Positions 5,347-53,475 of a stretch of DNA of 64,000 bases are shown piece after piece. Both the position numbers and the translations under genes were made by a program. The notes under the pieces are model-generated. The model had not been told where the DNA came from, searched no databases, and worked only from the letters and a program-made list of their open reading frames with translations. The DNA is from Colwellia polaris (GTDB lineage: Bacteria > Pseudomonadota > Gammaproteobacteria > Enterobacterales > Alteromonadaceae): positions 372,001-436,000 of the forward strand of contig NZ_NBOE01000001.1 of NCBI RefSeq assembly GCF_002104515.1, read 5' to 3'. The stretch's first letter is position 1. Each line of letters starts with the position of its first letter.

Positions 5347-6642
5347 ATGTTATTGCGACTAAAAATAAAATGGTTACAAAGCCTTTACCGAACAAAAATA
5401 TTGATTTTTCGTTATTTTTTAATTGGACGTTTTTTAGGTCGAAAATCAAAAGCGGAAGTTTATCTTTCATTAAATGATCCACATAGCTTTATGCTAGTGC
5501 AGATGCTATCTCGTTTAGAAACGAATTATCATCTTAAGTTTAAAGTGCTTTTTATTTGGGGAACTTTACCCGGCATTACTATTTGTCCAAAACTATATCG
5601 TCAATGGGCAATTAAAGATGCTAATTTAACCGCAGCACAATTTAACTTAATTGAAATTAAAGACGAGCCTACATCGGCTTCTTTAACCACAGGTCAACAG
5701 GCTTGGCAATTACAAGTTAATAATATCGCCAATGCAGAGCAAATCTTTATAAATACTTGGGGTAATAAGTTCGAAGAGCACTTTCAAACCTCAACCCCGA
5801 CTATTAATCATCAAGTTAAAAACCAACTTCGCTTAAAAGCAAAAGGGCATTACGCCCCAGCAAGCATTTTTTTTGCAGGCACTTGGTATGTAGGGGTTGA
5901 GCGTTTATATCACTTTGAGCGCGTGTTAAAAGAACTGCTATTAATAGATGAATTAAGTGAAGTGTTCATGACAACACAACCCCTAAGTTACGCTGTTAAA
6001 CCACCATCCTTCCCAGATAAAATAGTGGATATGCATGCGAGTAAAGCTGTAACTGAATCGGTTGCACCGATAGTGATATATTTGTCTTTGCGAAGTCCTT
6101 ACTCCTATTTAGGCTTTGTTAAAGCCATTGCGCTAGCTGAGCAATGTCAGGTTGAACTCGTTATTAAGCCTATTTTACCGCTATTAATGCGCGGAGCGCC
6201 TATGCCGGTTGTTAAGCAAAAATATATCTACCTTGATGCTTTTCGTGAAGCCAAAAAGCTAGGCATTGAGTTTACTGGGTTTACAGACCCCTTGGGGGTT
6301 GGTGTTATAAATGCTTATCGTTTATTTGCTTGGGCGCAGCAACAAGGTAAAGCTGTAGAGTATATGTTGGCTTGTTTTAAAGCGATTTATGTTAAAGGTA
6401 TCGACTTAGCAAATCATGAAAACCTTGAAGATATTTTTAAAGAATTATCGCTAAATATCGAAGATGCCTATGCTTTTCAAGCGCAGCATGACTGGCAGCA
6501 GTGGGCAGACTTAAACCAAATTGATTTAACCAATCTTAACCTATGGGGCGTGCCTAGTTTTAGTTATGGGAATGTTAGTTATTGGGGACAAGATAGAATT
6601 CCAGCCTTGGAGAAGGAAATAAATTACCTCCGAGATAATTAA
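5347..6642 (+). CDS. Tandem DsbA/HCCA-isomerase-fold protein (two thioredoxin-like domains)
   Basis: A 431-residue protein made of two related domains of the DsbA-like family that includes 2-hydroxychromene-2-carboxylate isomerase (kappa-class GST fold). The first begins near residue 37 (EVYLSLNDPHSF) and ends with GTWYVGVERLYHFERVL; the second begins near 241 (PIVIYLSLRSPYSYLGF) and ends with WGVPSFSYGN and YWGQDRIPALE. The second keeps the SPYSY glutathione-region Ser and the GVPSF cis-Pro segment; the first has SLNDPHSF instead and looks degenerate. Neither half has a CXXC disulfide motif, so dithiol oxidation is unlikely. No signal peptide is evident. The stop codon lies inside the left end of a repeat element starting at 6641. 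The substrate is unknown. Confidence 0.78.
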   Translation: MLLRLKIKWLQSLYRTKILIFRYFLIGRFLGRKSKAEVYLSLNDPHSFMLVQMLSRLETNYHLKFKVLFIWGTLPGITICPKLYRQWAIKDANLTAAQFNLIEIKDEPTSASLTTGQQAWQLQVNNIANAEQIFINTWGNKFEEHFQTSTPTINHQVKNQLRLKAKGHYAPASIFFAGTWYVGVERLYHFERVLKELLLIDELSEVFMTTQPLSYAVKPPSFPDKIVDMHASKAVTESVAPIVIYLSLRSPYSYLGFVKAIALAEQCQVELVIKPILPLLMRGAPMPVVKQKYIYLDAFREAKKLGIEFTGFTDPLGVGVINAYRLFAWAQQQGKAVEYMLACFKAIYVKGIDLANHENLEDIFKELSLNIEDAYAFQAQHDWQQWADLNQIDLTNLNLWGVPSFSYGNVSYWGQDRIPALEKEINYLRDN

Positions 6643-6816
6643 CCTGAACTTGGATAAGCAGCACTTGCTCAATGCTCCCTTTTAACCGATTTCCAAGGCA
6701 AAAATGAAGCATTGATGGTGGCTATTCGTGATGTTCACCTTGCTATAGTATTTACTTTACTAGCTAAGCTTTTGATTCACTTGTGTATCAAGCACTCATT
6801 ATCCAGAGTTCAGGTT
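6641..6816. mobile_element. MITE-like element, copy 1 (176 bp, imperfect terminal inverted repeats)
   Basis: The left end aacctgaacttggataag and the right end, read on the other strand as aacctgaactctggataa, form imperfect terminal inverted repeats of roughly 28 bases. The interior shares long stretches with copy 2 at 30761-30991, including attcgtgatgttcaccttgc. There is no transposase frame. Compared with copy 2 an internal segment of roughly 55-60 bases is missing. The left repeat supplies the TAA stop of the preceding gene. The family of the parent transposon is not known to me; target-site duplications were not clear. Confidence 0.72.
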
Positions 6817-6853
6817 AGTTAAATTTAATTGTTAATATAGACGTAGAGCTCTA

Positions 6854-6883
6854 TTGACTGTACTTATATTTAAATGTTTTAAT
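6854..6883 (+). promoter_or_regulatory. Predicted sigma70 promoter of the lysine-riboswitch operon
   Basis: TTGACT at 6854-6859 and TTTAAT at 6878-6883 are separated by 18 bases, a good match to the sigma70 consensus. Transcription would start near 6890, about 50 bases before the riboswitch core and just downstream of the MITE-like element. Confidence 0.6.
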
Positions 6884-6937
6884 ATTGCAGTCCCTTATTC
6901 CAGTGAGATTAATCATCAAAGGTTAATTATCACTAAT

Positions 6938-7062
6938 ATAGGGCCAGAAGAGGAGCGTTAGCCAGGTAATTATTGTGAAGAGATCAAACTCTAATGAGCA
7001 ATAATGAGGGGGTATAACGCCGAGGTAATTATATTTTTGATGATGTAATTATCGGTTGTTAA
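6938..7062 (+). promoter_or_regulatory. Lysine riboswitch (L-box)
   Basis: The segment reads gggccagaagaggagcg, then gccaggtaa, then tgagggggtataacgccgag followed by gtaattat and atcggttg. These blocks line up in order and spacing with the lysine aptamer of the E. coli lysC leader (ccagaagaggcgcgttgcc, tgagggggtgcatcgccgag, catcggct). It is followed at once by a terminator-like hairpin, giving the usual off-when-lysine-is-bound arrangement. The gene ends of the downstream operon support the assignment: the first gene is dapA-like. This is a recognition by sequence comparison from memory; a covariance-model search would settle it. Confidence 0.92.
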
Positions 7063-7099
7063 GGCTTAATTGTTTTTATTCATGATTAAGTTTTTTATT
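7063..7099 (+). terminator. Riboswitch-linked intrinsic terminator
   Basis: cttaat (7065-7070) pairs with attaag (7085-7090), extended by G-T wobbles, and is followed directly by six Ts and a further T-rich stretch. It sits immediately 3' of the lysine aptamer, so it is the probable expression platform. The stem is AT-rich, as expected in this low-GC genome. Confidence 0.7.
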
Positions 7100-7258
7100 T
7101 TCCGAACAAATTGAGTTCGTTGAATACTAGGTTGAATCCTTGCAACTGTCACCTAATAGGTGGAGAGCTTCTGGCCTTTGTTAAGGCCAAATTTCGTCCT
7201 TGAAATTTTGCCTCTACAAGCGCCTATAAGTTCTCCGAGCGACAAGAGTTCGAGAGAA
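7100..7258 (+). other. Leader between riboswitch terminator and dapA-like start
   Basis: About 160 bases of transcribed leader with three small hairpins: cacct/aggtg (7150-7161), tggccttt/aaggcca (about 7172-7189) and aaatttc/gaaattt just after. Their purpose is unknown; they could shape the riboswitch read-through RNA. A GTG at 7160 in frame with the gene lies among them but has no family support as a start. Confidence 0.4.
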
Positions 7259-8269
7259 ATGAATCAAAACAATTCGAAAGAAAACCCACAAACATCAGAT
7301 CAACCTTTGGTTTGGACTGCACTCATAACGCCATTATTTGATAATGACGAAATTGACTACGACAGTTTACACAAACTAGTTTTACAGCAAAACTCTGCCC
7401 AAAATGGCATTTTATTACTTGGCAGCACAGGTGAAGGGCTGGCATTAACCGCGACAGAGCATTTAAGTATTGTTGAATACGTTTGCGCTATGGCGTTACA
7501 AGTGCCGATCATGGTTGCCGTTGGGGGTTATAACCTAAAGGAGCAACTTGCTTGGATTGCCAAGTGTAATTCCTTGCCAATAGATGCTTATTTGCTTGGT
7601 AGCCCTATTTATGCAAAACCAGGTCCTGTCGGACAAAGGTTATGGTTTAACAGCCTACTTGATGCGGCTAACTTTCCTTGTATGCTTTATAACGTGCCTT
7701 CGCGTAGTGGTGTGGAAATTTCAATTTCGACACTGCAAGCATTACAAAGTCATAAAAATTGCTGGGCATTAAAAGAAGCCAGTGGTGACCTTCATAAGTT
7801 ACTCGCCTATAAAGAACATTGTCCTGAGCTAGCATTATATAGTGGCGAAGATGCCATGATGCCTTATCTTGCCGGCGCTAAGGTTAAGGGTTTAGTGTCT
7901 GTATGTGCGAACGTTTGGCCAATGGCAACTCGACAATATGTAGCGATGGCATTAGCACATCAAAATGAGGGACTTTTCCCGCTTTGGCATAAAGCAATCG
8001 CCGCACTATTTCAGGTGGCAAGCCCTATTCCTGTAAAGGTGTTAATGGCTGAACTTAAATCAATCAGCAGTGCGCAATTACGCTTACCTTTATCTCATAA
8101 AGAAATTGCTGAGAAAAGTGCCTTGCTTGAAGTACATCAAACAATTCAACAATGGCTTGAGGCCAACGCTAATCATCCTTTAGCCCATGTACACTCAATC
8201 GAAAGCATTTGCAGTGTAACCGAACTACATTATTCAACCCCCACTAACTTACGAGAAGTAAATTCATGA
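7259..8269 (+). CDS. dapA: Dihydrodipicolinate synthase-like aldolase (DapA family), lysine-riboswitch controlled
   Basis: A class I aldolase of the DHDPS/NAL family, expected to condense pyruvate with aspartate semialdehyde at the entry of the DAP/lysine pathway. From the ATG at 7259 the protein has 336 residues. Visible landmarks are GSTGEG (55-60, with Ser in place of the first Thr of GTTGE), SPIYAKP (Tyr118), LYNVPSRSG (Tyr144, Arg149) and the Schiff-base Lys172 in ALKEASGD. These support true DHDPS chemistry. A C-terminal tail of about 40 residues exceeds the usual 290-300. The gene follows a lysine riboswitch and overlaps the dapD-like gene by four bases, so the operon is translationally coupled. 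Another full lysine-pathway dapA may exist elsewhere; that cannot be seen here. Confidence 0.85.
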   Translation: MNQNNSKENPQTSDQPLVWTALITPLFDNDEIDYDSLHKLVLQQNSAQNGILLLGSTGEGLALTATEHLSIVEYVCAMALQVPIMVAVGGYNLKEQLAWIAKCNSLPIDAYLLGSPIYAKPGPVGQRLWFNSLLDAANFPCMLYNVPSRSGVEISISTLQALQSHKNCWALKEASGDLHKLLAYKEHCPELALYSGEDAMMPYLAGAKVKGLVSVCANVWPMATRQYVAMALAHQNEGLFPLWHKAIAALFQVASPIPVKVLMAELKSISSAQLRLPLSHKEIAEKSALLEVHQTIQQWLEANANHPLAHVHSIESICSVTELHYSTPTNLREVNS

Positions 8270-9015
8270 ACTGGCAACAAACATTAGCAGACTTAGAAAC
8301 AGGTAAAACTAGATCAGCACAACAAAATAACGATGGCTCTTGGCAAGTAAATACCGACGTAAAAGAAGCAATTTTAGCGGCATTTAAAGCAGGAGAAAAT
8401 ATCGAGTTTGACGGAGCATACAAAGGCTTTGTTGATAAACATAATTTACCTGCGCGTGAATTTACCGTCGCCGACCAAGTAAGAATGGTGCCGGGTGGTT
8501 CGTCAGTTCGTCGTGGTGCTTATGTTGCGCCTGGCGTAATTATTATGCCGCCAGCTTATATTAACGTTGGAGCATTTGTAGATACTGGCACCATGGTTGA
8601 TAGCCATGCATTAATCGGTTCATGTGCGCAAATAGGTAAAAATGTGCATGTTTCTGCGGCGGTACAAATTGGTGGAGTACTTGAACCTATTGGTGCTAGT
8701 CCAGTAATCATTGAAGATAATGCCTTTTTAAGTGCTGGCGTAATTATTGTTGAAGGTATCGTAGTGAAAAAAGGTGCGGTGTTAGCACCAGGCGTATCTT
8801 TATCAGCTTCAGTGCCAGTGTATGATTGTGTAAACAATCTGATGTTAGAGAAAGGTGCTGATATTCCTGAAAATGCGGTAGTTGTGCCAGGTACGCGACC
8901 TGTTAAAGGGGGTTGGGCTGAGCAACAAGGGCTTAACATGGCTTGTGCGTTAATTATTAAGTATCGTGATGAAAAAAGTAATGCAGCTTTAGAGCTTGAA
9001 TCTGTATTGCGCTAG
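8266..9015 (+). CDS. dapD: Tetrahydrodipicolinate N-succinyltransferase-like protein (DapD family)
   Basis: A left-handed beta-helix acyltransferase related to DapD, which transfers succinyl from succinyl-CoA to tetrahydrodipicolinate. It has 249 residues against about 274 in E. coli. Recognisable are VRMVPGGSSVRRGAYV, the hexapeptide-repeat core GTMVDSHALIGSCAQIG, and IGGVLEPIGASPVIIEDN, all diagnostic of DapD. The C-terminal segment is shorter and differs (VPGTRPVKGGWAEQQGLN), resembling the DapD paralogues found in specialised pathways such as tabtoxin TabB. The start overlaps the dapA-like stop by four bases. The acyl donor (succinyl or acetyl) and exact acceptor are not decided by sequence inspection. 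Confidence 0.85.
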   Translation: MNWQQTLADLETGKTRSAQQNNDGSWQVNTDVKEAILAAFKAGENIEFDGAYKGFVDKHNLPAREFTVADQVRMVPGGSSVRRGAYVAPGVIIMPPAYINVGAFVDTGTMVDSHALIGSCAQIGKNVHVSAAVQIGGVLEPIGASPVIIEDNAFLSAGVIIVEGIVVKKGAVLAPGVSLSASVPVYDCVNNLMLEKGADIPENAVVVPGTRPVKGGWAEQQGLNMACALIIKYRDEKSNAALELESVLR

Positions 9016-9024
9016 GAACTAAAA

Positions 9025-10287
9025 ATGTCTGCAATGTTAAACACAGCAACTCGGCCAAATTGGCTGAGAAAGTCTGTCATTAAATCACTTATCGCGTATC
9101 AGCAAACTCAGCAAAGCGGTGCTGAGCTCATTGAAGATGAAGTTGGTTTTTTTCTCTACGATTTAGATTATCTAGCGCAGCACTTGTCAGGGTTGATGCA
9201 ACAAGATGTGATTAAACTTTGGTTTGCGGTAAAAGCTAATCCACTGTCTCGTGTAATTTCGACCTTAGCACAACAAGGTTTTAATTTTGACGTTGCAAGT
9301 CAAGGCGAGCTTAGTCAAGTATTGGCACAAAAGGTTTCGGCTGACAGAATACTTAATACGGGACCGGCAAAGTCAAAGCAACAAATGAAAGCATTCTTAA
9401 CGCAAGGGGTTAATACTTTTGTTGTTGAAAGCTTGAACCAATTGCAATGGCTGAACGAAGCGGCCAGCGAACTATCTTGCCAACCCCAAGTGTTACTTAG
9501 AGTTCAATTACAGTGGGCTGAAGGTGAGAAAAATCCATTAGGTGGTAATGAAGTCACCGCCTTTGGTTTATCTTGTCAAGAGTGGCAAACCATCAAAGTG
9601 ACCGACTTTCCGGCATTAAATATCAATGGCTTGCATATTTTCCAATGGGGAAATATGTTGAGTAACGAGCGCATGTTCGAACTGTGGTCGCAAATGGTTA
9701 CTCCTTTATTATCGCTGGCAGAGCAATTAGAAATGACGCTTGAAGTGCTAGATTTAGGTGGTGGCTTAGGCGTAGATTATTTGCAAACTGGGCAAAACTT
9801 AAGTTGGGAGCAAATAGTTGCTGATTTAGCAAAAATAAAAAAACGTGCTGGTGTAAGCGAACTTTGGTTAGAGTTAGGGCGTTTTGCGGTTGCAGAAATG
9901 GGTTATTACGTTACTTCAGTGGTTGATCGAAAACAAAATTTCGAGCAACAGCAATTAGTACTTGCTGGTGGTATTAACCATTTAATTCGCCCTGCTATTA
10001 CTGAACAACCGTTTCCTGTGGCTATGGTTCGAGAATCAACAGCAAGCCCTAGTGCTTTTGATTTACACGGGCCGCTTTGTACCAGTTTAGATAAACTAGG
10101 AACTTTGGCAATAGCTAATGATGTGGGCATTGATGACCAATTAATTTTTGGTTTAGCCGGCGCTTATGGGTTTACTGAAAGTATGCCATTTTTCCTTTGT
10201 CATCCAATAGCGGCTGAATATGTTATTGAACAAGGTAAAATTGAGCAAATACGTGTAGCTCAACCGGCTACTTGGTATTTACGTTAG
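9025..10287 (+). CDS. Fold-III PLP decarboxylase, diaminopimelate decarboxylase-like (LysA family)
   Basis: A 420-residue alanine-racemase-fold decarboxylase. PLP-binding Lys70 lies in FAVKAN; the glycine-rich phosphate loop is LDLGGGLGVDY; the second-subunit catalytic block is GPLCTSLDKLG (Cys and Asp present) and GAYGFTESM, as in LysA. It differs from canonical LysA in GLHIFQWGN, where LysA has a HxHIGSQ motif, and in ELGRFAV, where LysA has EPGR. These changes lie near the substrate and cofactor pocket, so it may act on DAP or on a related amino acid. It starts nine bases after the dapD-like stop and overlaps no other gene. Decarboxylation as the reaction is well supported, the substrate is inferred from the operon. 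Confidence 0.78.
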   Translation: MSAMLNTATRPNWLRKSVIKSLIAYQQTQQSGAELIEDEVGFFLYDLDYLAQHLSGLMQQDVIKLWFAVKANPLSRVISTLAQQGFNFDVASQGELSQVLAQKVSADRILNTGPAKSKQQMKAFLTQGVNTFVVESLNQLQWLNEAASELSCQPQVLLRVQLQWAEGEKNPLGGNEVTAFGLSCQEWQTIKVTDFPALNINGLHIFQWGNMLSNERMFELWSQMVTPLLSLAEQLEMTLEVLDLGGGLGVDYLQTGQNLSWEQIVADLAKIKKRAGVSELWLELGRFAVAEMGYYVTSVVDRKQNFEQQQLVLAGGINHLIRPAITEQPFPVAMVRESTASPSAFDLHGPLCTSLDKLGTLAIANDVGIDDQLIFGLAGAYGFTESMPFFLCHPIAAEYVIEQGKIEQIRVAQPATWYLR

Positions 10288-10316
10288 TATGGTCAACACC
10301 TAACTTAAGGTTAACT

Positions 10317-11465
10317 ATGAATTTAATTAGCAAAGAGGTCATGCATGTCGGTGAAATGGCCAGTGGGGCAGCACTTACGGTACCCGTTTATCGCATTAAA
10401 GGTAGCGACCAAGGGCCTAACGTGTATATTCAAGCCAATATGCATGGTGCAGAAGTACAAGGTAATGCGGTTATTTTTCAGCTGTTAGAGTTGTTAAAAA
10501 ACATTGAATTAAAAGGCAGTATTACACTTGTGCCTTATGCAAATCCTGTCGGGTGCAATCATAAAAATGGAGAGTATACGCTAGGACGGTTTGACCCCAT
10601 TACCGGGGTAAACTGGAATCGTATGTACCATTTTGACGAAAGTATTATTGAGCCGTTTGCTCAAGCGCATTTAACTCAGTCAAATGTCGAAATAGCGCAA
10701 GCTTTTCAAGCGTTAATGGTTGAACAAGTATCACAAAAACTCAATCACACGGTATACGGAATTACGACAGGTCAACGTATTGCATATCAACTGCAGTTGT
10801 TAGCGCATCAAGCCGATCTTGTCTTAGATCTACATACCGGGCCAATATCAAGTAAGCACTTGTATTGCCCTGATTACGCCAGAGCAAGTGCTGAGTATTT
10901 TGATATTCCCCATGTGCTATTTATACCAAATGGCTTTGATGGCGCACTGGATGAAGCCACCTTTTGTCCTTGGTGGTATTTACAGTCAAAACTTGCTGAG
11001 TTAGGTCGAGATTTTCCGATCACGAAAACGGATTCTAATCAGGGAGTAAACGCGATTATTAAAGAGAGCTTTACGGTAGAGCTTGGTTCACAAGAGCAAA
11101 TTGATTTAGATGTTGCCCATGAAGATGCGTTAGGTATTTTAAGTTATTTACAATACCAAGGTGTCATTAATACTGAGCAATATCAGCCCAAAGCCATGAC
11201 AAGATATAGTTGTTTATTAGAGGACTACAAAGCGCTGTATTCGCCAATGGGCGGTATGGTGGATTATCTCGCTGAATTTGGAAAGCCTTTACCTGCGGGT
11301 GAACCTTTAGCGCGGATTCTTCGCATGGACAATTACGGTGACGGCGACCCTTTGCACTATATCAACTTAGATCACAGTGTTATTCCTATTTTGCACTTTG
11401 CCTCGGCGAGTGTAAATCAAGGTACAGAGCTTTATAAAGTATTTAGTAAGTACAGTATTTTATAA
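10317..11465 (+). CDS. Zinc-dependent deacylase of the succinylglutamate desuccinylase/aspartoacylase (AstE/AspA, M14-like) family
   Basis: A 382-residue metallo-amidohydrolase-like protein that should remove an acyl group from an N-acylated amino acid. The zinc ligands are visible as MHGAEVQGN (His and Glu of the HxxE motif) and DLHTGP (second His), with the catalytic Glu region FTVELGS further on. The ATG at 10317 follows the lysA-like stop by about 30 bases; an upstream in-frame start at 10272 would overlap that gene and lacks family support. As the last gene of a lysine-regulated operon with an N-succinyltransferase, it is a candidate N-succinyl-DAP desuccinylase unrelated to DapE. That role is inference. 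A strong terminator follows. Confidence 0.8.
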   Translation: MNLISKEVMHVGEMASGAALTVPVYRIKGSDQGPNVYIQANMHGAEVQGNAVIFQLLELLKNIELKGSITLVPYANPVGCNHKNGEYTLGRFDPITGVNWNRMYHFDESIIEPFAQAHLTQSNVEIAQAFQALMVEQVSQKLNHTVYGITTGQRIAYQLQLLAHQADLVLDLHTGPISSKHLYCPDYARASAEYFDIPHVLFIPNGFDGALDEATFCPWWYLQSKLAELGRDFPITKTDSNQGVNAIIKESFTVELGSQEQIDLDVAHEDALGILSYLQYQGVINTEQYQPKAMTRYSCLLEDYKALYSPMGGMVDYLAEFGKPLPAGEPLARILRMDNYGDGDPLHYINLDHSVIPILHFASASVNQGTELYKVFSKYSIL

Positions 11466-11484
11466 TGACCAAGATTTAAAAACA

Positions 11485-11522
11485 AAAACGCCTTGATATT
11501 TGATGATATCAAGGCGTTTTTT
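11485..11522. terminator. Bidirectional intrinsic terminator between the lysine operon and darP
   Basis: A 15-bp perfect stem (aaaacgccttgatat / atatcaaggcgtttt) with a 6-base loop, A-run on the left and T-run on the right. It serves the plus-strand operon and convergent darP. Confidence 0.92.
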
Positions 11523-11547: not shown

Positions 11548-12066
11548 TTAAAAAACTACGTGTTCTTTCAAATAAGCAAATAAATCACGGTAATGCTTAC
11601 CCACTTTTTCTGCTTTGTGCTCTTTTTTCGCCTGGCGCACTAGCTGCCTAAGCTTTTGTCTTTCCATGCTAGTAAATTCAGCGAGTAATGCTTCAATAGG
11701 TTCGTTGCCTTGTGCGATAAGCTCATCACGCATGTTTTCAAGTTTTTCAAACTTAACAGACTCTTGCTGATGTTTATTTGCCATAACATCCATTGCTTGT
11801 TTTATTGGCTCAAGATCTGTTTCAGCTAATATTTTGGCAATGTGGCGAACATGGCGACGTAAAGCCTCATGCTTATTGGTAATTTTGTCCGCTAATAACA
11901 TTGCGGCTTTCAAATCATCAGATAAAGGTAACTTGCTGCGTTGATGTTTCGACATTTTGACGAGGACAAGACCAAAATCTTGCAGTCGATGCATTTCGCG
12001 TTTTATTTCCGACTTACTTAGTAATTCTTCTTCTAATTCATCGATATCGTTAGCAGAGTGGGGCAT
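11548..12066 (-). CDS. darP: Ribosome-associated protein DarP (YjgA, DUF615)
   Basis: DarP binds late 50S assembly intermediates and helps mature the peptidyl-transferase centre. The 172-residue, highly charged, mostly helical protein has the family signatures DELEEELLSKSEIKREMHRLQ at its start, HEALRRHVRHIAKIL in the middle and FAYLKEH at the end. Length agrees with E. coli YjgA. It is divergent from pmbA, with 87 bases between, the same pairing as in E. coli and many other gammaproteobacteria. No anomaly was seen. Confidence 0.93.
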   Translation of the reverse strand: MPHSANDIDELEEELLSKSEIKREMHRLQDFGLVLVKMSKHQRSKLPLSDDLKAAMLLADKITNKHEALRRHVRHIAKILAETDLEPIKQAMDVMANKHQQESVKFEKLENMRDELIAQGNEPIEALLAEFTSMERQKLRQLVRQAKKEHKAEKVGKHYRDLFAYLKEHVVF

Positions 12067-12153
12067 AATGTTAAGTATTAAAGTGATAATTACCTATAGT
12101 ATACAACAAAGCAGGAGCAGCAAAAACATTCCTGTAGTTTGTATCGATAAAAT

Positions 12154-13527
12154 ATGAGAAATAATTTACCTATGAGCGATTCTGATAGTATCCAAATGCA
12201 AATAGAACACGTTAAAAAGCGTGTAAATGACGCCATGTCTATGGCTAAATCACTGGGAGCCGATGGTGCTGAAGTAGCAATGAGTCGTCAACAAGGCTTG
12301 AGTGTGAGTACACGCCTAGGTGAAGTTGAAAATGTTGAATTCACTAATGATGGTGGTTTAGGGATTACTGTTTATAAAGGTGGTCGTAAAGGTAGTGCTT
12401 CAACAGCGGATTTATCTGAGAAAGCCTTAAAGCAAGCGATTGAAGCGGCGGTTAATATCGCAAAATATACTTCAGTTGACGAATGCTCAGGCATGGCTGA
12501 TAAAGAACTCTTAGCCATGAATCCGCCAGATTTGGATTTATATCACCCGCAAGAGTTAACCACAGAGCAAGCGATTAGCTTAGCGAAAGAATGTGAAGAT
12601 ACCGCTTTAGCTTATGACAAACGCATTACTAATTCAGATGGTGCAACCTTAGCAAGTTTTGAAGGTTTTAAAGTTTACGGTAATAGCCATGGGCAAATCG
12701 TTGGCTATCCAAGTACCCGTCACAGCTTAAGTTGTGTGATGATCGCCAATGAAGGTGATGACATGCAGCGCGATTATGCTTATACCGTTAGTCGCGAATT
12801 TAATGCCATGGAAAGTGCCGCTAAAATAGGCCAGCAAGCTTCTATCGAAGCATTATCAAGATTAGGTGCGCGTAAATTAGCAACCACTAAAGTACCTGTT
12901 ATGTTTCGTGCTGATATTGCTAATACACTTTTTGGGCATTTTATCGCTGCGATTAGTGGCGGCAACTTATATCGTAAATCGTCATTTTTAATGGATTCAA
13001 TAGGCAAACAAGTTTTCCCTGAATTTTTAAGTATTAGCGAACGTCCTCATTTGAAAAAAGCCTTAGCTAGTGGCGCATTTGATGCTGAAGGTGTTGCGAC
13101 TATTGATCGTGAAATTATTACCGATGGTCGTTTAGCTACTTACCTTTTAACCAGTTATTCAGCACGTAAAATGGGCCTTCAAACAACGGGTCATGCCGGC
13201 GGAATTCATAACTGGCAGCTTGGTATGCAAGGTGATGGCAAAGGCGGTGATTTTGATGCTATGTTAAAAACTTTAGGCACGGGCTTATTAGTCACTGAAC
13301 TGATGGGCCAAGGTGTTAATGTAGTTACGGGCGATTATTCAAGAGGTGCGGCAGGTTTTTGGGTTGAAAATGGTGAAATCGCTTATCCAGTTGATGAAAT
13401 TACCATCGCCGGTAAACTACAGGATATGTTTTCAGGTATTGTCGCAATAGGTAACGATACCGATATGCGTGGCAGCATTCGTACCGGTTCAATTATTATT
13501 AATGAAATGCAAATAGCAGGAAGTTAA
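12154..13527 (+). CDS. pmbA: Metalloprotease subunit PmbA (TldE)
   Basis: PmbA forms a heterodimeric cytoplasmic protease with TldD, known for processing microcin B17 and degrading the CcdA antitoxin. The TldE subunit lacks the zinc-binding HExxxH of TldD, and none is seen here. Family markers include GAEVAMSRQQGLSVSTRLGE, NVEFTNDGGLGITVY, YGNSHGQIVGYPSTRHS, TGHAGGIHNW and a C-terminal NEMQIAG. The protein has 457 residues from the ATG at 12154 or 451 from 12172; neither start has a clear ribosome-binding site. It is divergent from darP and convergent with mgtE. tldD is not in the window. Confidence 0.93.
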   Translation: MRNNLPMSDSDSIQMQIEHVKKRVNDAMSMAKSLGADGAEVAMSRQQGLSVSTRLGEVENVEFTNDGGLGITVYKGGRKGSASTADLSEKALKQAIEAAVNIAKYTSVDECSGMADKELLAMNPPDLDLYHPQELTTEQAISLAKECEDTALAYDKRITNSDGATLASFEGFKVYGNSHGQIVGYPSTRHSLSCVMIANEGDDMQRDYAYTVSREFNAMESAAKIGQQASIEALSRLGARKLATTKVPVMFRADIANTLFGHFIAAISGGNLYRKSSFLMDSIGKQVFPEFLSISERPHLKKALASGAFDAEGVATIDREIITDGRLATYLLTSYSARKMGLQTTGHAGGIHNWQLGMQGDGKGGDFDAMLKTLGTGLLVTELMGQGVNVVTGDYSRGAAGFWVENGEIAYPVDEITIAGKLQDMFSGIVAIGNDTDMRGSIRTGSIIINEMQIAGS

Positions 13528-13547
13528 CAAACAAGTTTGAAGTTATT

Positions 13548-13577
13548 AGCTGACAGCTTAAAACTGACAGCTTTTTT
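13548..13577. terminator. Intrinsic terminator after pmbA
   Basis: agctgacag pairs with ctgacagct (8 of 9 pairs, one A-A mismatch) around a short loop, followed by six Ts, between convergent pmbA and mgtE. Confidence 0.65.
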
Positions 13578-13578
13578 G

Positions 13579-14937
13579 TTACCCTAACATTAACGTTGCT
13601 GTGCCTAAAAAGGCGAATATACCTACTACATCGGTTACGGTTGTTAAAATCACACTGCCGGCTAATGCAGGGTCAATGTTCATTTTTTTCAGCATAAGAG
13701 GCACGGTAACACCAGCAATACCGGCAGCGGTCATGTTCATTAGCATGGCAAAAGCGATAATGGCACCTAGCATAAGATCTTGCTGCCAAATGGCCACCAC
13801 TGAAGCAATTAAAACTGCCCAAATTAAACCATTAAAAAAGCCGATGGCTAACTCTTTATATAATAGTATTCGTGAATTACTTTCACCAACATGGCCAAGC
13901 GCCATACCGCGAATAACTAGCGTCAACGTTTGATTACCAGCAACACCCCCCATACTAGGGACAAGCGAGTTTAGCACTGCTAAAATGGCTAGTTGATTTA
14001 ATATACCTTCAAACATACTAGAGACAGCAACGGCCATTAACGCTGTGATTAGGTTTACACCCAACCAAATAGAACGACGTTGGGTACTTTTTATTACCGG
14101 TGCAAAGGTATCGGCTTCGTCATCTAAACCCGCCATACTCATCATGGAATGCTCGGCTTCTTCACGAATAATATCAACGACATCATCGACTGTAATACGG
14201 CCAAGCAGGCGACCTTCGTGATCAATTACTGGTGCAGAGAACCAGTCGTAACGTTCGAATAACTGCGCGACATCTTTTTCGTTTAGATCTGCGGTAATCG
14301 CTTGAATATCTTTATCAATTAGGTGCGAAATAATAGTTTCGGCTTTGGCGGTTACTATGGATGATAAAGAAACTGCCCCGATGAAATGATCTTCGCGGTC
14401 AACAACATAGAAAGAGTCGGTTGCTTCTGGCAACTTGCCGCGTAAACGTAAATAGCGTAACACCACATCTACCGTAACATCGGGCCGAATAGAAATGGTA
14501 TCGGTATTCATGATACCGCCGGCGGTGTCTTCTTCGAATGAGAGCGCTGTTTCTACACGGCTGCGATCTTGCCAGTCCATGGCATTTAGCACTTCTTGAT
14601 AAACACTGTCAGGTAATGTTCTGAACACTTCTGCTAAATCATCAACGTCCATACCTTCTGCGACGGCAGCAAGCTTTTCAGGGTTAATGTTTTTAAGAAT
14701 ACTTTTTCGAACTTCTTCGTTTAGTTCTTCGAGTACGTCACCATGATGATCAGCATCAATTAATTGCCAAAGTGCCATTCGGCTTTTGCTAGGAGACGAC
14801 TCTAAAAGTAGGGCAAGATCGTATGCTGGCATGTCTTGCAGTAATTTTCGGACATAGACAAACATACCGCTATCGAGGGCAGTATTTACCTGTTGTAGGC
14901 GTTGATGACTGTATTCTTGTTCGGAAACTTCCGGCAT
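13579..14937 (-). CDS. mgtE: Magnesium transporter MgtE
   Basis: MgtE is a dimeric Mg2+ channel gated by cytoplasmic magnesium. The 452-residue protein shows the family order: an N-terminal helical MgtE_N domain (about 20-130, with the LLESSPSKSRMALWQLID type repeats), a tandem CBS pair (about 135-260) starting at EEDTAGGIMNTDTISI and including GRITVDDVVDIIREEAEHSMM, then a membrane domain of five helices (about 290-452) with NSLVPSMGGVAGNQTL and the pore-region segment GIAGVTVPLML. Convergent with pmbA. About 390 bases precede the start before the next gene. No magnesium-sensing RNA leader was recognised. Confidence 0.95.
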   Translation of the reverse strand: MPEVSEQEYSHQRLQQVNTALDSGMFVYVRKLLQDMPAYDLALLLESSPSKSRMALWQLIDADHHGDVLEELNEEVRKSILKNINPEKLAAVAEGMDVDDLAEVFRTLPDSVYQEVLNAMDWQDRSRVETALSFEEDTAGGIMNTDTISIRPDVTVDVVLRYLRLRGKLPEATDSFYVVDREDHFIGAVSLSSIVTAKAETIISHLIDKDIQAITADLNEKDVAQLFERYDWFSAPVIDHEGRLLGRITVDDVVDIIREEAEHSMMSMAGLDDEADTFAPVIKSTQRRSIWLGVNLITALMAVAVSSMFEGILNQLAILAVLNSLVPSMGGVAGNQTLTLVIRGMALGHVGESNSRILLYKELAIGFFNGLIWAVLIASVVAIWQQDLMLGAIIAFAMLMNMTAAGIAGVTVPLMLKKMNIDPALAGSVILTTVTDVVGIFAFLGTATLMLG

Positions 14938-53040: not shown

Positions 53041-53121
53041 AAAGAAATGCGGCTGGTTGAGTATCCTAACGGGCTTTTCAACTGGTAAATTTTAAATTAA
53101 AAATAGGAGATGTGTTTAGTG
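53041..53121 (+). promoter_or_regulatory. alpha operon leader, S4-binding pseudoknot
   Basis: The run ttgagtatcct, aacgggcttttca just upstream of the rpsM start matches the E. coli alpha-operon ribosome-binding-site pseudoknot (ttgagtatcctgaaaacggg, cttttcag). Ribosomal protein S4, encoded three genes downstream as rpsD, binds this element in E. coli and traps the ribosome to repress the operon. The rpsM start codon is GTG here as in E. coli, which is part of that control. Confidence 0.85.
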
Positions 53122-53475
53122 GCCCGTATCGCTGGCATTAACATCCCTGATCGTAAGCATGCAGTAATCGCCATTACTGCGATCTTCGGTATCGGAGCAA
53201 CACGTGCGAAAGCAATTTGTGTTGCAACTGGTATTGCAGAGTCAACTAAGATCAGTGAATTGGACGAAGCTCAAATTGATTTGCTTCGTGCAGAAGTGGA
53301 TAAATACACCGTAGAAGGTGATTTACGCCGTGAAGTTTCAATGAACATTAAACGTCTTATGGATTTAGGTTGTTTCCGTGGCATTCGCCACCGTCGCAGT
53401 CTTCCTCTACGTGGTCAACGCACTAAAACTAATGCGCGCACCCGTAAAGGTCCTCGTAAGCCAATTAAGAAGTAA
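53119..53475 (+). CDS. rpsM: 30S ribosomal protein S13
   Basis: S13 contacts the P-site tRNA and bridges B1a/B1b. The 118-residue protein starts at GTG 53119 ([15 protein letters not shown]), nine bases after aggaga; an in-frame ATG at 53110 abuts that sequence and is rejected. It ends [14 protein letters not shown]. First gene of the alpha operon, controlled by the S4 leader. Confidence 0.97.

Follow-up and report, generated by a model that had tools for sequence, protein, structure and literature searches.

The 64,000-nt stretch of the Colwellia polaris genome analyzed here (contig NZ_NBOE01000001.1, positions 372,001 to 436,000; hereafter the window) carries a lysine riboswitch followed by four tightly packed genes, termed dapA', dapD', lysA' and M14, the last encoding a zinc deacylase of the AstE/AspA type. 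DapA', DapD' and LysA' are paralogs of enzymes encoded elsewhere in the same genome, and dapD' and lysA' occur together across relatives and have altered active-site positions. In most Gram-negative bacteria, lysine and the meso-diaminopimelate (meso-DAP) of the cell wall are made by one shared textbook pathway, and lysine can hardly repress the whole of it because meso-DAP is made by the same route. We put it just short of an even chance that the operon adds to the DAP pathway a branch that serves lysine alone and is expressed only at low levels of free lysine. Slightly more tentatively, the branch would be an unrecognized route in which N-acyl-LL-DAP loses a carboxyl group before its acyl group, the N-alpha-acyl-lysine so formed being deacylated afterwards, without DapE, DapF or meso-DAP; this fuller reading also includes control by the lysine riboswitch and a feedback-insensitive DapA.

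From these features we infer each reaction of the branch and the sequence of its two final steps, as well as which acyl group is used and in which direction the control works. DapA' would make the first dedicated intermediate with little feedback by lysine, and would presumably be followed by the housekeeping DapB. DapD' would then acylate tetrahydrodipicolinate with a succinyl or acetyl group, and a housekeeping aminotransferase would presumably yield N-acyl-LL-DAP. LysA' would decarboxylate the free-amine end of this compound to N-alpha-acyl-L-lysine, from which the M14 deacylase would free L-lysine. DapE, DapF and meso-DAP would be bypassed, and the lysine supply could therefore be adjusted without touching cell-wall meso-DAP. 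The gene order of the operon matches the proposed order of reactions. Compared with the succinylase pathway (DapA-DapB-DapD-DapC-DapE-DapF-LysA), the early steps would be homologous, with the same acceptor predicted for DapD', whereas the proposed branch would have a deacylase of an unrelated family, a decarboxylase with a changed distal pocket and no need for the epimerase. The epimerase would be skipped under either order of the last two steps, unless LysA' uses meso-DAP after all.

LysA' scored 189.7 bits against the lysA equivalog model TIGR01048, below its cut-off of 297.9 bits, and by its sequence is not an ordinary DAP decarboxylase. Residues were compared in the rows that passed a length filter (LysA' 72/72, DapD' 69/73, DapA' 58/58 and M14 99/99). 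The lysine that binds pyridoxal phosphate (K54), as well as H193, C337 and Y365, were kept in 72/72 LysA' copies (71 distinct). The residue following the conserved Cys was Thr in 72/72 LysA' copies and Glu in 15/15 housekeeping LysA, and both arginines for the distal carboxylate, R270 and R306, were kept in 72/72. Motif mapping placed the Thr, R270 and R306 in the columns of Glu315, Arg249 and Arg285, respectively, of the Thermotoga DAP decarboxylase (TmDAPDC); numbered along the LysA' of the window, the three are Thr353, Arg286 and Arg322. In TmDAPDC, Glu315 binds the distal amine, and the arginines hold the carboxylate at the same end; its E315T variant lost most DAP activity and turned over 2-aminopimelate, in which the distal carboxylate is present and the distal amine absent (PMC8277567). 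Because Glu has become Thr in LysA' while both distal-carboxylate arginines remain, its substrate looks like one with a free distal carboxylate and a blocked or absent distal amine, i.e., an N-acyl-DAP.

The nearest solved relatives of LysA' were SbnH (PDB 6knh) and BtrK (2j66), with 179 and 145 bits by profile, which have the Cys-Thr motif and an F-L-x-H ending in common with it. SbnH acts on an N-citryl-L-amino acid and BtrK on an L-glutamyl carrier protein (PMC7857480). Among the Cys-Thr rows aligned, only LysA' had an Arg at the column of TmDAPDC R285 (its R306), that of SbnH lying one column earlier. In the phylogeny, LysA' formed a clade of its own (100/100), apart from housekeeping LysA (100/99).

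DapD' passed the NF008808 model (296.8 bits, cut-off 204), fell below the stricter TIGR00965 (192.3 bits, cut-off 375.4) and had a shortened N-terminus. At the two positions that we take to be the conserved active-site carboxylates of DapD, D141 was kept in 69/69 copies and E189 was replaced by V or I in 69/69; housekeeping DapD had E at 189 in 11 of 12 rows, the twelfth (L027) being read out of frame. The region around E189 resembles that of the acetyltransferase DapH (PDB 3r8y), which also has V there, and since DapD' has V or I at this position its acyl group may be acetyl. The DapD of P. aeruginosa did not accept acetyl-CoA (PMC3281039). The DapD_Ac score was rejected as proof of an acetyl donor, housekeeping DapD scoring 92.2 and DapD' 83.1.

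DapA' passed the dapA equivalog model TIGR00674 (241.9 bits, cut-off 206.15). Of the presumed Schiff-base and proton-relay residues, K161, Y133, Y107, R138 and T45 were found in 58/58 copies, and T44 was Ser in 58/58. The lysine feedback site, which we take to consist of Y106, N80, E84 and H56, had lost both Y106 and N80 in 58/58 DapA' copies, and lysine feedback on DapA' is probably reduced. Substitutions at His56 and Glu84 of DapA were reported to abolish lysine inhibition (PMC10464499).

A search of the genome outside the operon found housekeeping copies of DapD (372.8 bits), LysA (553.2 bits), DapE (565 bits) and DapF (319.2 bits), a second DapA (221.1 bits), and another lysine riboswitch heading a lysC-type gene. 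The preliminary description of the window had proposed a partial duplicate of the lysine pathway under a lysine riboswitch, which these copies bear out; they rule out an ordinary, sole lysine pathway containing the only dapA, dapD and lysA of the genome. The operon copies were 45.5% (DapD), 28.5% (LysA) and 27.5% (DapA) identical to the genome's other copies, and the housekeeping DapD and LysA were 67–80% identical to those of relatives (five DapD and three LysA compared). As the former identities are far below those among housekeeping orthologs, the operon copies are old and not recent duplicates. DapE was over its cut-off in 16/16 genomes searched, six of which carry DapD', and replacement of LysA, DapF or DapE by the operon through gene loss was rejected, the housekeeping genes being retained. 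One genome (G036) had a single LysA above the cut-off, located at L062 in an 866-residue frame that also matched aspartokinase, an apparent fusion.

M14 matched PF24827 (AstE_AspA_cat) with 94.4 bits, against a cut-off of 25, and is predicted to release lysine (or LL-DAP) from an N-acyl form. H43, E46, H173, R91, N101, R102 and E255 were found in 99/99 sequences, including those of lone M14 genes; H43, E46, H173 and E255 are presumably zinc ligands or catalytic residues. The nearest solved chains, 3lwu and 3fmc (569 and 548 bits, full length), are of the AstE/AspA type and known here by family name alone. M14 was the most widespread member of the operon, occurring in 17/17 genomes of the genus (C. 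polaris included), in 24/40 genomes searched overall, and, at E ≤ 1e-40, in 7/369 genomes of the class, three of which belong to the family of C. polaris. Seven lone M14 genes (L097, L098, L099, L142, L146, L152, and L163) had no lysine riboswitch and no labeled lysine genes nearby; in these, the deacylase family stands apart from control by lysine.

Gene arrangements were compared at 87 M14 loci, made up of the best 80 of 364 named relatives and seven loci from other genomes; the counts thus lean to close relatives, and at least two genomes are included twice (L093 = L173 and L095 = L144). Genes were labeled with five profiles (dapA', dapD', lysA', M14, and lysC), the dapA' labels (395–596 bits) being based on three seed rows. 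The arrangement of the window, riboswitch-dapA'-dapD'-lysA'-M14, was found at 47/87 loci and at one more in which dapD' was in two pieces. The others were riboswitch-dapD'-lysA'-M14 (20/87), riboswitch-dapA'-M14 (8/87), riboswitch-lysC-M14 (1/87), riboswitch-lysC-dapA'-dapD'-lysA'-M14 (1/87), dapD'-lysA'-M14 with no riboswitch match (2/87) and lone M14 with none (7/87). A sequence profile of six riboswitches found one upstream in 78/87 loci, and Rfam agreed on its absence from the same nine (the seven lone M14 genes and two operons). Within an operon, neither dapD' without lysA' nor the reverse was ever labeled among the 87 loci. Named hosts include Colwellia, Cognaticolwellia, Thalassotalea, Litorilituus and Pseudoalteromonas.

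Because these loci came from a search anchored on M14, the sole test of co-occurrence was a search of 247 genomes of the order with each profile separately (DapD' at E ≤ 1e-60, LysA' at E ≤ 1e-100, and M14 at E ≤ 1e-80). LysA' was found in 16/247 genomes and DapD' in the identical 16, and M14 in 42, including 15 of these 16; in the sixteenth (G551), the contig breaks off within lysA', which is preceded by riboswitch-lysC-dapA'-dapD'. The chance probability of two sets of 16 coinciding among 247 is 1.8e-25, and that of at least 15 of 16 falling in the M14 set is 3.7e-12; both figures ignore relatedness and so overstate the significance. Related operons have lysC as a partner (L094, L220, L096, and L224), and in a distant member (G417, locus L219) a dapB-like gene stands directly before dapD'-lysA'-M14; its dapB score of 106.7 bits falls short of the cut-off (122), yet each of the two Pfam DapB domains passes its own. 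At L224, a c-di-GMP-I riboswitch (L224:3450-3537, 76.3 bits) lies upstream of an 865-residue gene adjoining riboswitch-lysC-M14.

The preliminary description had placed a promoter and a lysine aptamer with a terminator before four tightly packed genes. The covariance model confirmed the aptamer, with a full-length match to RF00168 (88 bits, gathering score 30), and the four genes all lie downstream of it on the plus strand (Table 1). The terminator did not hold up, as the scan for intrinsic terminators listed none in the leader between 6940 and 7259 and one at the end of the operon, so that terminator control of this leader is unsupported; nor was the promoter confirmed: scanning 6640–6940 on the plus strand with a simple consensus gave no match, a test that says little for or against one. 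Folding gave a hairpin at about 7231–7258 (-11.8 kcal/mol) in which the probable ribosome-binding site upstream of the dapA' ATG is paired. A competing, stronger long hairpin takes in the 3' end of the aptamer and consumes the partner strand of the first. Since these alternative folds hide or free the ribosome-binding site, they suggest translational control, in which bound lysine would close the aptamer and hide the ribosome site; lysine binding and the resulting lowered expression are predicted. The region before the ATG was mostly paired in 63/75 distinct homologous leaders, an excess that is moderate because shuffled leaders with the site fixed (20 shuffles) already gave a mean of 43/75 (range 36–53). 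Six of the 75 leaders had a terminator-like element.

Table 1. Features of the lysine riboswitch operon, in window positions.
Feature	Position	Strand	Basis or remark
Lysine riboswitch aptamer	6940..7178	+	RF00168, 88 bits, E 1e-21, model positions 1-182
Expression platform (putative)	7162..7262	+	Folds, z -2.5 to -5.2
dapA'	7259..8269 (ATG start)	+	TIGR00674 match
dapD'	8266..9015	+	4-base overlap with dapA'; NF008808 match
lysA'	9025..10287	+	Pyridoxal phosphate-dependent decarboxylase; TIGR01048 below cut-off
M14 (AstE/AspA-type zinc deacylase gene)	10317..11465	+	PF24827 match
Intrinsic terminator, operon end	11484..11521	+	Stem of 17 pairs, T-rich tail

An alternative that we consider unlikely, yet that fares best among those weighed, is that deacylation comes first. 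M14 would then be a second, non-homologous N-acyl-LL-DAP deacylase, an analog of DapE, and LysA' would decarboxylate LL-DAP or a DAP isomer; the last two steps would stand in their usual order, and DapF would also be skipped if the substrate were LL-DAP. Such a role would suit M14 where it follows lysC or dapA' without LysA' (L095, L096, and L224), in genomes that are expected to make N-succinyl-LL-DAP, given that DapE was found in all 16 searched, including those of L095 and L096. It is also consistent with a weak likeness of M14 to the N-acetyl-diaminobutanoate deacetylase DoeB (33.7 bits, cut-off 402.7). With the invariant Thr of LysA' (72/72), however, a free distal amine is no longer recognized, which is hard to reconcile with free LL-DAP as substrate, and it is DapD' and LysA' that are coupled, in the same 16/247 genomes, whereas M14 is not tied to them.

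It is improbable that the four genes encode plain isozymes, among them a LysA' for meso-DAP and a spare DapE (M14), whose role is to boost the succinylase pathway when lysine is low. The labeled partners do belong to the lysine pathway, the partial set needs housekeeping enzymes, these are retained, and DapA' passes the dapA equivalog cut-off. This reading nevertheless sits poorly with a LysA' that is below its cut-off (189.7 of 297.9 bits), only 28.5% identical to the genome's LysA and devoid of the DAP-specific Glu in 72/72 copies, and with the loss of E189 from DapD' in 69/69; strict coupling of DapD' with LysA' would be unexpected for spare parts.

Tabtoxin-type clusters combine DapD- and LysA-like genes with further toxin-forming genes. 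A lysine-like or N-acylated lysine product, such as an N-alpha-acyl-lysine solute or the tabtoxin-like branch entertained in the preliminary description, with M14 recycling it, is very unlikely: the cluster proposed for the known solute N-alpha-acetyl-lysine consists largely of DAP-pathway genes, its route passing through lysine (PMC4685198), but a lysine riboswitch points to lysine as the product under control, the most widespread member is a deacylase, the neighbors scanned with Pfam are housekeeping types with no recognized amino-acid exporter, ligase or tailoring enzyme, relatives add lysC or a dapB-like gene, and the gene downstream is not constant (a same-strand gene ≤150 bases after M14 in 24/84 loci, with varied sequences).

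Several observations weigh against a branch that runs through N-acyl-DAP decarboxylation. The E315T variant of TmDAPDC stayed D-specific (PMC8277567), and N-acyl-LL-DAP offers an L center. The placement of LysA' is shaky, its link to the SbnH/BtrK type (98/96) coming from a tree with long branches and dropping to 54/25 in a smaller tree from which SbnH and four paralogs were left out. Because E189 is lost, the substrate of DapD' may differ too. At the lysine site of DapA', E84 is kept in 28/58 copies and H56 in 10/58, both being present in the window copy. M14 occurs without DapD' and LysA' in 27 of the 42 M14 genomes, and so must have a substrate without LysA', as in the riboswitch-lysC-M14 arrangement at L096 and L224; N-acyl-LL-DAP itself would fit, which keeps deacylation before decarboxylation alive. 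Two of the 71 dapD'-lysA' loci have no riboswitch, nor does the dapB-like operon of G417 at the Rfam threshold. Gene loss lends the branch no support, because DapF was retained in 16/16 operon genomes and LysA was over its cut-off in 15/16, the lone exception (G482) being a draft of ~450 contigs whose dapF match is also partial. Biochemistry on these operon proteins was not found in the open-licence literature.

Flanking genes given to Pfam comprised DSBA-like, DarP, PmbA/TldD, MgtE, methyltransferase, histidine kinase, HPr, and RapZ. Genes of the DarP, PmbA/TldD and MgtE types stand beside the operon both in the window (11548–14937) and at L219 of G417, a genome of another family, in different arrangements; with the same neighbors in both, the chromosomal place looks old. 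Upstream of the leader, positions 5347–6642 encode a 431-residue protein whose DSBA-like domain is confined to the C-terminal part. Farther along the window, at 53042–53151, lies an Alpha-operon ribosome-binding-site RNA (RF00140, 83.7 bits), which is a common type of leader for ribosomal-protein genes.

The operon itself has been recorded before. A lysine riboswitch survey from 2017 lists a dapA-dapD-lysA-hypothetical1-hypothetical2 operon in Pseudoalteromonas haloplanktis, which by gene order is of the same kind as that of the window, and a riboswitch-dapD arrangement in Colwellia psychrerythraea (PMC5584792). The portion of that survey available to us treats the genes as ordinary lysine genes, and the fourth gene, the further copies and the changed active sites are unnamed there. 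Among our loci, those from other Pseudoalteromonas and from one C. psychrerythraea strain (L134) carry M14. In the open-licence literature we found neither a proposal of an N-acyl-DAP decarboxylase branch or of a function for the operon, nor the identity of the deacylase, the further copies or the changed active sites.

If the proposed route is true, a switchable, lysine-only branch would separate the supply of lysine for protein from the supply of meso-DAP for the cell wall. It would add a hitherto unknown version of a central pathway, and would give a function to a family of zinc hydrolases whose structures are solved but unassigned.

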